Source: Streptomyces sp. NBS 14/10
Lineage (GTDB): Bacteria > Actinomycetota > Actinomycetes > Streptomycetales > Streptomycetaceae
DNA length: 64,000 bases
Reading direction: 5' to 3'
Assembly: GCF_002224125.1 (NCBI RefSeq)
Contig: NZ_NCSM01000005.1
Location: forward strand, 259,165 to 323,164
The notes below the pieces were generated by a model that saw only the letters and a list, made by a program, of their open reading frames with translations, did no database searches and had not been told where the DNA came from. This document shows, in pieces, positions 36,885 through 44,000 of the stretch; within the stretch, counting starts at the first letter, position 1; every line of letters starts with the position of its first letter. A program made the translations under genes and the position numbers.

Positions 36885-38117
36885 ATGGCCTTACGCGGAC
36901 GCCACCGCCGCTACAAGCCCAACCGCATCTCCCGCGCCTCGCTCAGCGTCACCGCGGGCGGCGCCGGTATCGCCCTGCCGCTGATCGGTGCGGCCGGGGC
37001 GGGCGCGGCCTCCGGGGAGACCTGGGAGAAGGTCGCCCACTGCGAGTCCACCGAGAACTGGGACATCAACACCGGCAACGGCTTCTACGGAGGCCTGCAG
37101 TTCACCCAGTCCACCTGGGAGGCGTACGGCGGGTCCGCGTACGCGCCCCGGGCCGACCTGGCCAGCAAGGACCAGCAGATAGCCGTAGCCGAGAAGGTGC
37201 TCGACGCCCAAGGCCCCGGTGCCTGGCCGAACTGCTCGGGGCGGGCCGGGCTGACCCGAGCCGACGCCGCCCCGCAGAGCACGCCCAAGGCCAAGGCCGC
37301 GTCGGCGACGACACACCAGCAGGCCGACCGCACCCCGCAGACCAAGCGCGACACGCCGACGCCCACCAGCCTCCCGGGCCGCACGTCGGCCAAGGACAGC
37401 GCGTACGTGGTCATCAGCGGCGACACGCTGACCCGGATCGCCAAGCGGCACGATGTCGACGGCGGCTGGCAGACGATCTACCAGGCCAACCGCGAGACCG
37501 TCGGCGGCGACCCGGATCTGATCTTCCCAGGCCAGAAGCTCTCTCTGAACGACTCCGGGGCCAAGGCCAAGCCCAAGGCGAAGCACGAACCCAAAGCCGA
37601 GCCCAAAGCCAAGGCGAAGCCGAAGGCCGAGCGGCCGTCGAAGGCCGCCAAGCCGGACCGCCACCACCGGACCGCCCACAAGCCCGCCGCCAAGAAGCCC
37701 GCCGGCACCTCGGAGTTCACCGCCCCGGTCACCGGGGTCGGCCCGAGCACGGCGTACCGCGCGGCCGGGGGCAGTTGGTCGAGCGGCTATCACACCGGCG
37801 TCGACTTCCCCGTGGGCATCGGCACCTCGGTCAAGGCCGTCGGCGCCGGCCGGGTGGTCTCGGCGGGGTGGGCCGACGCATACGGCTACGAGGTGGTCAT
37901 CCAGCACCCGGACGGCCGGTACAGCCAGTACGCCCATCTGTCGCAGCTGTCCGTCCGGGCGGGCCAGCAGGTGGGCGGCGGCCAGCAGGTGGGCCGCAGC
38001 GGCTCGACGGGCAATGCCACCGGTCCACATCTGCACTTCGAGATCCGTACCGGCCCCGGTTACGGCTCCGATATCAACCCGCTGGCCTATCTGCGCTCAC
38101 ACGGCGTCTCCATCTGA
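36885..38117 (+). CDS. secreted Rpf/LysM/M23 peptidoglycan hydrolase
   Basis: A 410-residue exported three-module wall enzyme. Order: signal peptide (1-42); resuscitation-factor-type transglycosylase domain (45-118, catalytic Glu54 in [17 protein letters not shown]); LysM (172-222); a Lys/Ala/Pro linker with repeated AKPK/EPKA units (226-272); and an M23 endopeptidase (about 280-405) with zinc ligands His303 and Asp307 in HTGVDFPVG and HxH at 382-384. It could cut both glycan and peptide bonds during germination or growth. GAAGGAG is upstream. I looked for a c-di-AMP riboswitch in the 283-base leader and saw none. Confidence 0.95.
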
Positions 38118-38687
38118 GCAGGCCGAGCGGGCGCGCGCGGCGAGCCGGGGCAGGAGGTCCCCGGCCCGCTCGCAGACCACGATGCCGTCCACGTCGCGGC
38201 GCGACACGAACCCTTCGGCCGCGGCGTGGGCGAGGAAGGCGAGCAGGGGCTGGTAGAAGCCGTCGGTGTCGAGGAGGGCGCACGGCTTGTCGTGCAGCCC
38301 GATCTGGGCCCATGTCAGCGTCTCGAAGAACTCCTCGGCGGTGCCGAGCCCACCCGGCAGGGCGACGAAGGCATCGCCGAGTTCCGCCATGCGCGCCTTG
38401 CGCTGATGCATGTCCTCGACGACCAGGAGCCGGGTGAGACCGGTGTGGCGGATCTCGTGGCGCGCCAGGTGCCGCGGGATGACGCCCGTGACGGCGGCGC
38501 CCCCGCGCAGGGCGGCGTCGGCCACAGCCCCCATCAGGCCCACCCGGGCCCCTCCGTACACCAGCTCCAGCCCCGCCTCGGCCACGGCCCGGCCGAACTC
38601 GGCCGCCGCGCGGAGATGGACCGGACGGCAGCCGGAAGAGGCCCCGCAGAAAACCGTGACCCGGCACAGGCGCGCGTAGCCGCTCAC
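38097..38687 (-). CDS. LOG-family cytokinin riboside 5'-monophosphate phosphoribohydrolase
   Basis: A 196-residue Rossmann protein of the TIGR00730/LOG family, which cleaves cytokinin ribotides to the free base. Both hallmarks are present: [12 protein letters not shown] near the start and [14 protein letters not shown], the PGGxGTxxE motif that binds the phosphoribosyl group. GTG 38687 overlaps the stop of the isopentenyltransferase gene (GTGA), so the two are translationally coupled, strong support for a cytokinin-like role. Many LOG proteins outside such operons have other functions, but the partner makes this reading likely. Its 3' end overlaps the wall-hydrolase gene by 21 bases. Confidence 0.9.
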
Positions 38688-42079: not shown

Positions 42080-44000
42080 GGTCGTACTGGCAGGCCTGCA
42101 GATGGAACAGCTCGGCGTAGATGCCACCCCGGTCCAGCAGCTCCTGCGGGGTGCCCGACTCGGCGAGCCGCCCCTCGTGGAGGACGTGGATGAGGTCGGC
42201 GTGCCGGACGGACGCCAGCCGGTGGGTGATCAGCACGACGGTCTGACCCTCCCCCGCGAGCGCGCGGATCTGCTCGAAGACGGCCAGCTCGGCGCGGGCG
42301 TCGAGCGCCGAGGTGGGCTCGTCGACCAGCAGCACGGGCGCGGTGCGGTAGCGGGCGCGGGCGATGCCGAGCCGCTGCCACTGGCCTCCGGAGAGCTGGT
42401 GGCCGCCGCGGAACTCCCGGGCCAGCAGGGTGTCCCAGCCGTGCGGCAGCCCGGCGACGATGTCGTCGGCCCCGGCGTAGGCCGCCGCGCGGTCCAGGGC
42501 CTCGGCGCGGATGGGGCTCTGCGGGCTGCCGATCGCGACGTTCGCCTTGGCGGTGAACGGCCAGCGCTTGAAGTCCTGGTTGACCATGGCGATCCGGGAG
42601 AAGAGCTGTTCGCGGTCGGCCTCCGCGATATCGGTGCCGTCCCACAGGATGCGCCCCGAGTCCGGCAGATGGAGCCCGGCGAGCAGCTTGACCAGGGTGG
42701 ACTTACCGGATCCGTTCTCGCCGACGAGGGCCACCACGCCCCCGCCGGGGATGGTGAGGCTGACCTTGTCCAGGGCGGGCCGGTCGCTCCCGGGGTAGGT
42801 GAAGGAGACGGAGTCGAAGCGGATCTCCGCCGGCTCCTCGGGCAGCGGCAGCCCGCCCTCGGGGATGGCGTACCGCTCGGCGTCCTCGCACAGCCGGTCG
42901 AGGTCCTGGACGAACAGCATCTCCTCGTAGAGCTGGTTGAGCTGGAGCACCAGGGTGGACAGGTTCTGCGACCCGGTGCGGATCGCGATGACCGCGGTGC
43001 CCGCGACGGACAGCTCCATGCCGCCGGAGAGCAGCAGCCCGGCGAGCGCCGAGTAGGTGGCGAGGGTCGCCGCGCCGGTGAGCGTCGCGGCGATCAGCTC
43101 GGTGCCGGCCGCGGCGTCGGCCAGCCGGGTCTGCTCCGCCTCCGCGGACTCCGACATCCGGCGGAAGTGCCGCAGCAGGAAGCCGCCGACGCCGTGCACC
43201 CGGACCTCCTGCGCCGCCTCGCGCTCGGTGAGCAGCCGGCTGAGCAGATGGCCCGCGCGGGCGTGCTCGATCATGGTGTGGAAGGAGAGATAGCGGCGGC
43301 GGGCGATACGCAGCGAGCTCCAGCTGCGCGGCAGGGCGATGAGCACCAGCAGGGGCAGCAGTACGGGGTGCAGAACGGTCAGCACTCCGGCGGCGGCGAC
43401 GACGGCGAGCAGTCCGTTGACCACCGCCACGCAGTACTTGACCATGCGCCGGGCCGAGGAGGCCCCGTATTGGGCGGAGTCCAGCAGCCGGTGGAACTCC
43501 GCGTCCTCGATGGCGGAGAGCTCCACACGGGCCGCGCACTCCAAGTACCGTTCGGTCGCGACCCGTTCGACCTTCGGCTCGAGTCGGCCGGTCCCGGCCG
43601 TCGAGGCCGAGGCCAGCAGCGCGCCGAGGACCGCCACCACGCCGACCACGATCAGTGACGGCAGTGCGCTGTGCAGCCGGTCGGCGGTCGCCCCGTCGGA
43701 GAGCAGGGCCGCCAGCGCGTCGTTCACCGCGACCAGGCTGAACGCCTGGCCGATCCCCTGGCCGAGCTCCGCCGCCGCGACCGTTTGCAGCGCCCTGCGG
43801 TCGGCGGCCCAGGCGAGCCGTACGGTGGAGCCCACCAGGCGCGGGAGCCTGCGGGCCATCGCCCATAGCGACAGATGCAGATAGGCGTCGTCGTAGCGGC
43901 TGAATCCCATGTCGTACCGGAGCCGTCCGCCGAAGAGCAGTTGCTCGGACTCCGATGTCTCGTCAGTGGCCTGTTGCTTGCGTCGCCGCGGCCACGGCAT
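42066..44000 (-). CDS. ABC transporter, fused permease and ATP-binding protein
   Basis: A 644-residue half-transporter with an N-terminal membrane domain (about six helices, residues 50-360) and a C-terminal nucleotide-binding domain. Walker A GENGSGKST, signature LSGGQ, Walker B VLLVDEPTSA and H-loop ITHRL are intact. The membrane domain is of the exporter type, as in transporters found in natural-product clusters. I chose Met at 44000 (GGAGGG upstream); the longer antisense extension to 45212 is spurious. It ends 14 bases inside the convergent radical SAM gene. It could export the product of the isopentenyltransferase cluster, which is inference. Confidence 0.92.
   Translation of the reverse strand: MPWPRRRKQQATDETSESEQLLFGGRLRYDMGFSRYDDAYLHLSLWAMARRLPRLVGSTVRLAWAADRRALQTVAAAELGQGIGQAFSLVAVNDALAALLSDGATADRLHSALPSLIVVGVVAVLGALLASASTAGTGRLEPKVERVATERYLECAARVELSAIEDAEFHRLLDSAQYGASSARRMVKYCVAVVNGLLAVVAAAGVLTVLHPVLLPLLVLIALPRSWSSLRIARRRYLSFHTMIEHARAGHLLSRLLTEREAAQEVRVHGVGGFLLRHFRRMSESAEAEQTRLADAAAGTELIAATLTGAATLATYSALAGLLLSGGMELSVAGTAVIAIRTGSQNLSTLVLQLNQLYEEMLFVQDLDRLCEDAERYAIPEGGLPLPEEPAEIRFDSVSFTYPGSDRPALDKVSLTIPGGGVVALVGENGSGKSTLVKLLAGLHLPDSGRILWDGTDIAEADREQLFSRIAMVNQDFKRWPFTAKANVAIGSPQSPIRAEALDRAAAYAGADDIVAGLPHGWDTLLAREFRGGHQLSGGQWQRLGIARARYRTAPVLLVDEPTSALDARAELAVFEQIRALAGEGQTVVLITHRLASVRHADLIHVLHEGRLAESGTPQELLDRGGIYAELFHLQACQYDLSGP

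Follow-up and report, generated by a model that had tools for sequence, protein, structure and literature searches.

In a window of 64,000 nucleotides from Streptomyces sp. NBS 14/10, the whole stretch of DNA analysed here, we found a group of genes that is best read as a reduced fas-like cytokinin locus, with a modified, perhaps methylated cytokinin as its most readily inferred product. As judged from sequence comparison, the B12-type radical SAM protein encoded in this locus (referred to as rSAM) probably methylates the cytokinin side chain, likely at C1', to give an oxidase-resistant product, and a remnant of FasC appears to have been retained beside it.

All of the named genes were found with open frames by translation and profile searches of the window. 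On the minus strand lie the genes for LOG (38097-38687, 196 aa) and for the adenylate isopentenyltransferase Ipt (38684-39427, 247 aa), and their frames overlap by the GTGA at 38684-38687. Divergent from this pair, the plus strand carries a transketolase-like gene for a shortened FasC (39650-40378, 242 aa; an earlier ATG at 39614 is an alternative start), and the gene for rSAM (40439-42079, 546 aa), the proposed cytokinin side-chain methylase. The first-pass annotation, made from the sequence alone, had described just this arrangement, including the truncation of the transketolase-like gene and the radical SAM family of its neighbour. The intergenic stretch between ipt and the FasC remnant (39428-39649, no strand assigned), the divergent promoter region, contains a near-palindrome and an 8-nt inverted repeat as putative elements; a motif scan of this region detected no element common in one orientation to the other loci. 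The gene order was identical in S. milbemycinicus (locus L019), with protein identities of about 89-98%. Comparison with L019 gave dN/dS values of 0.13-0.24 for six genes, and of 0.20-0.24 for LOG, ipt, the FasC remnant and rSAM. The kept order, the level of identity and the low dN/dS altogether indicate that the genes are maintained. The neighbourhood of five genes was complete only in the window and in S. milbemycinicus among the loci fetched, and was rejected as a widely conserved unit.

An ABC exporter gene (42066-44000, minus strand) flanks this group, converging with the rSAM gene and overlapping it by 14 bases. Its orthologues were detected at 61-67% identity in 12 of the 61 genomes searched, none besides being above 67%, and nine of these 12 genomes were without an adenylate Ipt. 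The exporter loci of other genomes include roughly 1.5 kb on the flanks, where none of the window's other flanking genes had a match. The exporter is thus present next to rSAM as first annotated, but its membership in the set was rejected on the strength of the nine genomes; it is probably a neighbour.

Members of the Ipt family join a prenyl group to AMP. The Ipt of the window matched PF01745 with 191 bits (cut-off 20) over profile positions 3-224 of 233, that is, over the whole domain, and its sole solved relative was 2ze5. In a tree of 40 rows it grouped with FasD and the Agrobacterium Ipts, apart from six MiaA proteins that were separated at 100/100; its score against the miaA model was 36 bits (cut-off 148.65). 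The assignment as a free-adenylate enzyme and not MiaA was thereby upheld. LOG passed the cut-offs of both TIGR00730 (184.6 bits, cut-off 96) and PF03641 (145 bits), and stayed below that of the NCBIfam equivalog NF058542 (140 versus 300 bits). Its translation contains PGGLGTAEE, an instance of PGGxGTxxE, which we take to be the motif of LOG phosphoribohydrolases.

The match of the transketolase-like protein to Transket_pyr is confined to the end of the profile (positions 124-170 of 174) and falls slightly short of the model cut-off. By alignment, made without the FasC of L112, it is a shortened FasC in which the initial portion of the pyrimidine domain, with the GIREQ motif, is missing. The FasC entries are based on the fasC query together with in-frame ORFs, and the simple ORF caller used on fetched loci called some shadow frames. 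Among the loci searched, a query with fasB, which encodes the TPP-binding half, matched L069, L117 and L118 only. A working transketolase was therefore rejected, given the missing GIREQ stretch and the narrow range of the fasB matches. The remnant nevertheless gave a dN/dS of 0.24 against L019, and many Streptomyces retain a shortened FasC (dN/dS of 0.16-0.64 among nine of them). We infer for it a role in the pathway as a retained protein free of TPP chemistry that may serve as a scaffold or in regulation. No paper on a selected, truncated FasC was found, and the available part of PMC4092121 calls the function of FasB and FasC unknown; the shortened form offers a route to asking what the two proteins do.

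The rSAM protein matched Radical_SAM with 72 bits, and the B12-binding domain PF02310 with 23 bits, below the Pfam cut-off of 32.1. The cysteines of the CxxxCxxC core (C255, C259 and C262) were present in 39 of 39 aligned proteins. The nearest solved relatives were TokK (E 2e-14) and CysS (E 5e-10). W139 aligns with Trp76 of TokK and is W in all 16 clade members; since the position is also W in 17 of the 23 relatives outside these 16, it points to the class of enzyme, not to a substrate. The best NCBIfam match, PhpK (TIGR04479), reached 167 bits against a required 600 and was also the top match in all seven further proteins scanned; BchE followed with 115 bits (cut-off 481). A MiaB-like methylthiolase (TIGR01574) was rejected at 13 bits (cut-off 355.3). 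In the rSAM tree, all 14 proteins labelled as Ipt-associated fell on one branch (100/99), five of these labels being database proteins assigned at genome level (P0003 and P0006 by species name alone). The Ipts that partner the rSAMs of this clade belong to different lineages of the Ipt tree.

In the genus sample, an adenylate Ipt was present in 14 of 392 Streptomyces genomes overall, in 5/5 genomes with a clade rSAM and in 0/8 genomes with a relative at 50-56% (p = 7.5e-7 with the window's genome excluded, a statistic that ignores kinship). With loci from named genomes added, an adenylate Ipt accompanies the clade rSAM in all seven distinct Streptomyces genomes that carry one. Of the five besides the window's and that of S. 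milbemycinicus, four have rSAM at a site apart from Ipt; in the fifth, S. hainanensis, contig ends leave the distance unreadable. S. nanshensis, with a distant rSAM relative, also has an Ipt, and a more distant relative (L022) sits in an NRPS-type cluster. Among 396 genomes sampled across the phylum, the window's genome was the only match; 345 genomes sampled from the family gave eight matches, of which only G000 and G333 belong to the close group. Two protein lists cover 120 of 433 and 120 of 166 entries, and absence from them carries no weight.

Clade rSAMs were also found in nine of 72,556 plasmid records, all from Rhizobium, P. savastanoi or R. fascians, and Ipt adjoins rSAM in seven of the nine. 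Six Rhizobium records have the order ipt-rSAM-idi-LOG, in two olive-knot Pseudomonas records rSAM is accompanied by idi or a fragment of idi, and in R. fascians pA21d2 rSAM adjoins an IPT-LOG fusion with a one-base overlap. Because these close relatives adjoin cytokinin genes on plasmids of gall bacteria, rSAM is a good candidate for the enzyme that adds the extra carbon of some bacterial cytokinins. The first-pass annotation had overlooked both these plasmid genes and the published speculation on cytokinin methylation by them, in which, as far as the accessible text goes, a methylating role was guessed separately for the Pseudomonas and the Rhodococcus genes. The available part of PMC4092121 reports the A21d2 rSAM as unexpressed in three media and offers no prediction that it acts in cytokinin metabolism. 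We found no paper on the Streptomyces rSAM branch, nor one unifying the Streptomyces, Rhizobium, Pseudomonas and Rhodococcus genes.

In the proposed pathway, Ipt would join the prenyl group to AMP, and rSAM, as a methylcobalamin-dependent enzyme, would methylate the side chain, with C1', the sp3 carbon adjoining N6, as the most likely site, for which radical chemistry is well suited. LOG would then free the base, yielding a cytokinin of the 1'-methyl isopentenyladenine type that would be a poor substrate for cytokinin oxidase. This proposal draws on the gene families and their order, the purifying selection, the rSAM clade, its linkage and co-occurrence with Ipt, and the TokK-like cofactor residues, all of which were observed here. 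From these we infer methylation, with the side chain as target and C1' as position; it might take place at the stage of the nucleotide or of the prenyl donor, and would confer resistance to the oxidase. P. savastanoi makes 1'-methylzeatin according to the available part of PMC7472798, which also states that cloned P. savastanoi ptz in E. coli gives no ribosyl-1''-methylzeatin. Papers of the 1980s report 1'-methylzeatin and its riboside from P. savastanoi and relatives. Levels of methylated cytokinins do not strictly track virulence or the mtr genes (PMC7261884), and we found no gene shown to perform the methylation that gives 1'-methylzeatin.

Alternatively, rSAM might act in the cytokinin pathway other than as a methylase, rearranging, cyclising or oxidising prenyl-adenine as OxsB and BchE do with their own substrates. 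The second-best match to BchE and the existence of non-methylating members of the class (PMC13331322, as far as available) are in line with this; we regard it as rather improbable, as the nearest solved relatives are methylases with the Trp under the cobalt kept in rSAM, and methyl cytokinins are known, from the partial sources above, in P. savastanoi, a species with rSAM plasmids. That rSAM methylates elsewhere, on the purine ring, the ribose or a phosphorus centre, is unlikely: the P-methyltransferase PhpK is the leading match here and in the seven further proteins, but far below the required score, and in the P. savastanoi methyl cytokinins it is the side chain that is methylated, to judge by the name 1'-methylzeatin in those sources.

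An rSAM unrelated to cytokinins, inherited or transferred with Ipt by chance, would account for its position away from Ipt in four of the seven Streptomyces genomes and for L022 in its NRPS-type cluster. It is quite unlikely in view of co-occurrence without linkage in Streptomyces, linkage on Rhizobium plasmids, the one-base overlap in pA21d2 and the different lineages of the partner Ipts. Lastly, a functionless, decaying remnant of fas would explain the loss of FasB, P450 and cytokinin oxidase (CKX) from the locus, a FasC lacking GIREQ, and a genome in which no FasE-type CKX was detected at E<=1e-30; the open frames, the selection on all four genes and the retention of shortened FasC across Streptomyces make such decay very improbable.

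If side-chain methylation by rSAM is true, it would supply the enzyme for the 1'-methyl modification, a marker gene for producers of methyl cytokinins, and a test system in Streptomyces. This rSAM clade recurs with Ipt across Streptomyces, Rhizobium, Pseudomonas and Rhodococcus. We tentatively suggest, as a possibility short of a firm expectation, that one horizontally shared clade is the bacterial cytokinin C1'-methylase; it would have diversified in soil actinomycetes, and tumour-plasmid Rhizobium, olive-knot Pseudomonas and leafy-gall Rhodococcus would have recruited it to sit next to Ipts of differing lineage. It would explain 1'-methylzeatin; free-living Streptomyces would make oxidase-resistant methyl cytokinins, with the dismantled FasC as a non-enzymatic partner.

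Among known systems, fas of R. fascians D188 (pFiD188) likewise groups Ipt (FasD, 44% identity) with LOG (FasF) and a FasC homologue, so that the annotated likeness to fas is real. The fas genes on pFiD188, with two methyltransferases, P450, FasB and CKX, run in one direction, whereas the window has a shortened FasC, a divergent gene arrangement and an rSAM. Queries with FasA (P450), FasB, FasE (CKX) and the two methyltransferases had no match in L001, L002 or the 18.6-kb L019, which bears out the earlier view that rSAM stands in place of the P450, CKX and ordinary methyltransferases. Eleven fas-like loci from 11 Streptomyces genomes (L105-L115) share the divergent shortened FasC and ipt-LOG, but have CKX between ipt and LOG and no rSAM in the locus. 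TokK and CysS, radical SAM C-methylases that require cobalamin, resemble the window's rSAM as its nearest solved relatives, with Trp76 of TokK on W139; they are distant in sequence and have other substrates, a carbapenam for TokK and a cystobactamid precursor for CysS. The Rhizobium and Pseudomonas plasmid clusters differ in carrying idi and in that no FasC was found in them, and in Rhizobium the Ipt belongs to the Agrobacterium lineage. Both the Rhizobium ipt-rSAM-idi-LOG plasmids and ptz-rSAM-idi of Pseudomonas (pPsv48C and pv. myricae; PMC7472798, as far as available) have the same rSAM clade with a cytokinin Ipt. The A21d2 cluster of rSAM, IPT-LOG and hydrolase genes, with Ipt and LOG fused, without FasC and on a plant-pathogen plasmid, has an rSAM of this clade immediately adjacent to Ipt and LOG.

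All five genes noted by the first-pass annotation, an ipt-log pair with a transketolase-like gene, a radical SAM gene and an ABC exporter gene, were found at the locus, and their order was identical in Streptomyces milbemycinicus (locus L019). On the minus strand, the LOG phosphoribohydrolase gene (38097-38687; Pfam Lysine_decarbox (LOG), 145 bits) and the adenylate isopentenyltransferase gene ipt (38684-39427; Pfam IPT, 191 bits) overlap by GTGA. A shortened FasC gene (39650-40378, plus strand), in which Pfam detected only the end part of Transket_pyr, lies beside the gene for the B12-type radical SAM enzyme, rSAM (40439-42079, plus strand; Pfam Radical_SAM, 72 bits), whose B12-binding match was 23 bits against a Pfam cut-off of 32, and next comes the ABC exporter gene (42066-44000, minus strand). 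The genome is 12.1 Mb in size, with the window on its contig C73, and shares a genus group with Streptomyces hainanensis (G120). For six genes compared between the window and L019, dN/dS was 0.13-0.24. The dS of ipt (38684-39427 against 5218-5961 of L019) was 0.24, or 2-4 times the 0.06-0.105 of its neighbours; recombination at ipt could be the cause. The divergent promoter contains, at 39528-39570, the near-palindrome GTTGAATATTTAAC together with a perfect inverted repeat whose 8-nt arms are separated by 27 nt; both are identical in L019. The gene at 36885-38117 encodes a protein resembling resuscitation-promoting factors, with LysM and M23 peptidase domains, and shares 21 bases with LOG at the 3' ends of the two genes.

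The sole solved relative of the window Ipt at E<=0.001 was 2ze5, which we take to be Agrobacterium Tzs. When 40 proteins were placed in a tree, the window Ipt grouped with FasD, the Ipt of the Rhodococcus fascians D188 fas locus, and with Ipts of Agrobacterium; the six MiaA proteins included, all from Streptomyces, were split from the Ipts at 100/100. MiaA, the alternative that the first-pass annotation had itself raised against its assignment, is thus ruled out by this tree, and the claim of an adenylate Ipt stands.

Among the fetched Ipt loci, a FasC-like gene was divergent from ipt in 14 loci of 13 genomes. Eleven of these (L105-L115) carry ipt, cytokinin oxidase (CKX) and LOG genes beside a shortened FasC; L116 of S. 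hainanensis, at a contig end, carries ipt and LOG with no CKX adjoining, and L117 and L118, both of genome G315, additionally carry FasB. In L104, ipt was without companions. The CKX gene of L118 (10611-11914) is interrupted by TAG. The glutamate of the GIREQ motif is catalytic in transketolase-family enzymes. In the alignment of FasC, which does not include L112, GIREQ was kept in D188, L117 and L118, and the window, L019 and ten others were missing the initial portion of the pyrimidine domain, where GIREQ lies; FasC of L116 is longer, but has SAHRR at the GIREQ position. D188 FasB carries the ferredoxin and the TPP-binding half. For the shortened FasC genes, dN/dS was 0.24 for window against L019 and 0.16-0.64 across 36 pairs of nine others. 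The remnant thus looks like a gene that is being maintained but that carries out no TPP chemistry by itself. FasE-type CKX (E<=1e-30) was detected in 14 of 16 Ipt-bearing genomes and was not found at this threshold in the window genome or in S. milbemycinicus, the two genomes in which rSAM adjoins ipt.

In a genus sample of 392 genomes, rSAM relatives (E<=1e-40) were detected in 13, five at 67-100% and eight at 50-56% identity, and adenylate Ipt (E<=1e-15) in 14. All five genomes with the close rSAM carried adenylate Ipt (171-191 bits), and the eight others gave Ipt matches of only 20-30 bits, the level of MiaA. With the window genome omitted, Ipt was present in 4/4 against 13/391 overall (hypergeometric p 7.5e-7, kinship ignored). 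Among loci of named genomes, of which three of five close and three of seven distant overlap with the genus sample, adenylate Ipt was detected in 5/5 close and 1/7 distant rSAM genomes, and the pooled distinct genomes gave 7/7 against 1/12. The exception, S. nanshensis (L026, G788), has two adenylate Ipts (188-189 bits) and an rSAM outside the clade. In four Streptomyces genomes, Ipt was not found within the fetched stretch around rSAM; the rSAM of S. hainanensis begins 48 bases from the contig end. Among the matches listed, rSAM (P0001) and Ipt (P0121) of strain NPDC059590 are each on a 76,317-base contig, and those of Amycolatopsis sp. Hca4 each on a 10,972,864-base contig.

By tblastn of rSAM (E<=1e-40) against 72,556 plasmid records, nine matches were obtained: six Rhizobium, two Pseudomonas savastanoi and one R. 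fascians A21d2. The order ipt-rSAM-idi-LOG was observed in all six Rhizobium records, with IS elements interspersed in one operon (L063). Five of these records are called pTi and the sixth is an unnamed plasmid of strain B230/85; since tzs is absent from pTiB230/85 itself according to PMC10410297, the B230/85 operon lies on another plasmid. A His-Xaa-Ser system (hxsA, and the radical SAM maturase hxsC) is located near the cytokinin operon of pTiL51_94 (L063 14565-16285). Plasmid pPsv48C carries rSAM-idi and pPsv_PVFi1 carries rSAM with a piece of idi; according to PMC7472798, the final 27 nt of ptz are left upstream of the Pseudomonas rSAM, ptz is located on pPsv48A, and pv. myricae has ptz, rSAM and idi in one place. 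On pA21d2, rSAM and an IPT-LOG fusion gene have a single base in common.

In a tree of 51 rSAMs, 14 rows labelled as Ipt-associated fell on one side of a 100/99 branch, with some unlabelled rows among them, and the gall-plasmid rSAMs nested beside Amycolatopsis sp. Hca4 and further proteins. A quick tree of 90 rows concurred (44-row set, SH-aLRT 99). In the 40-protein tree the Rhizobium Ipt joined the Agrobacterium Ipts at 100/100, apart from the Streptomyces Ipts, so that a single rSAM clade has Ipt partners from more than one lineage. A distant rSAM relative (47%) in locus L022 (1489-18828), with NRPS-type genes on one side and an ABC gene on the other, is possibly a C- or N-linked tailoring enzyme of a peptide.

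Five solved sequences matched rSAM at E<=0.001, the closest being TokK (2e-14) and CysS (5e-10). In TokK, Trp76 lies beneath the cobalt, and CysS is probably alike (PMC13331322). W139 of the window rSAM aligned with TokK Trp76, and W was present in 16/16 clade members and 17/23 others; all three CxxxCxxC cysteines were present in 39/39 aligned proteins. The top NCBIfam match was PhpK, a P-methylase family, with 167 of 600 bits. Judging from name and structure, the methyl of 1'-methylzeatin is on the sp3 carbon beside N6. Because a C-H at this position is a target suited to the radical SAM class, we propose that the candidate rSAM would methylate the cytokinin side chain at C1', its substrate being either the nucleotide or the prenyl donor. 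We consider it very probable that the enzyme has some role in the cytokinin pathway; that it methylates the side chain is a somewhat better than even expectation.

The interpretation by the first-pass annotation of an unusual cytokinin-type cluster was borne out in part, and the rSAM-cytokinin link proved wider, through plasmids of gall bacteria and co-occurrence, than the sequence alone could show. No publication tying this rSAM to Streptomyces cytokinin genes was found in a search, mostly of papers outside subscription, by title, opening of the abstract and selected passages, and in two Ti-plasmid papers naming tzs the words SAM and isopentenyl were absent from the main text. Contrary to the proposed role, the A21d2 rSAM was silent in three media, with no role in cytokinin metabolism predicted for it (PMC4092121), and changes in methylated cytokinins were not strictly tied to virulence or mtr genes, as stated in PMC7261884. 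The latter source also suggested the A21d2 rSAM as a possible contributor to methylated cytokinins, and the same role was speculated for the Pseudomonas rSAM in PMC7472798, where methylated forms are ascribed to some P. savastanoi strains only. The latter species makes 1'-methylzeatin, and E. coli with cloned ptz made no ribosyl-1''-methylzeatin (PMC7472798). In R. fascians, methyl cytokinins arise via mt1 and mt2, by which IPP is methylated before its use by FasD (PMC6963480; PMC8234997), and the dimethyl product is reported to be resistant to cytokinin oxidase (PMC6963480; PMC6539147).
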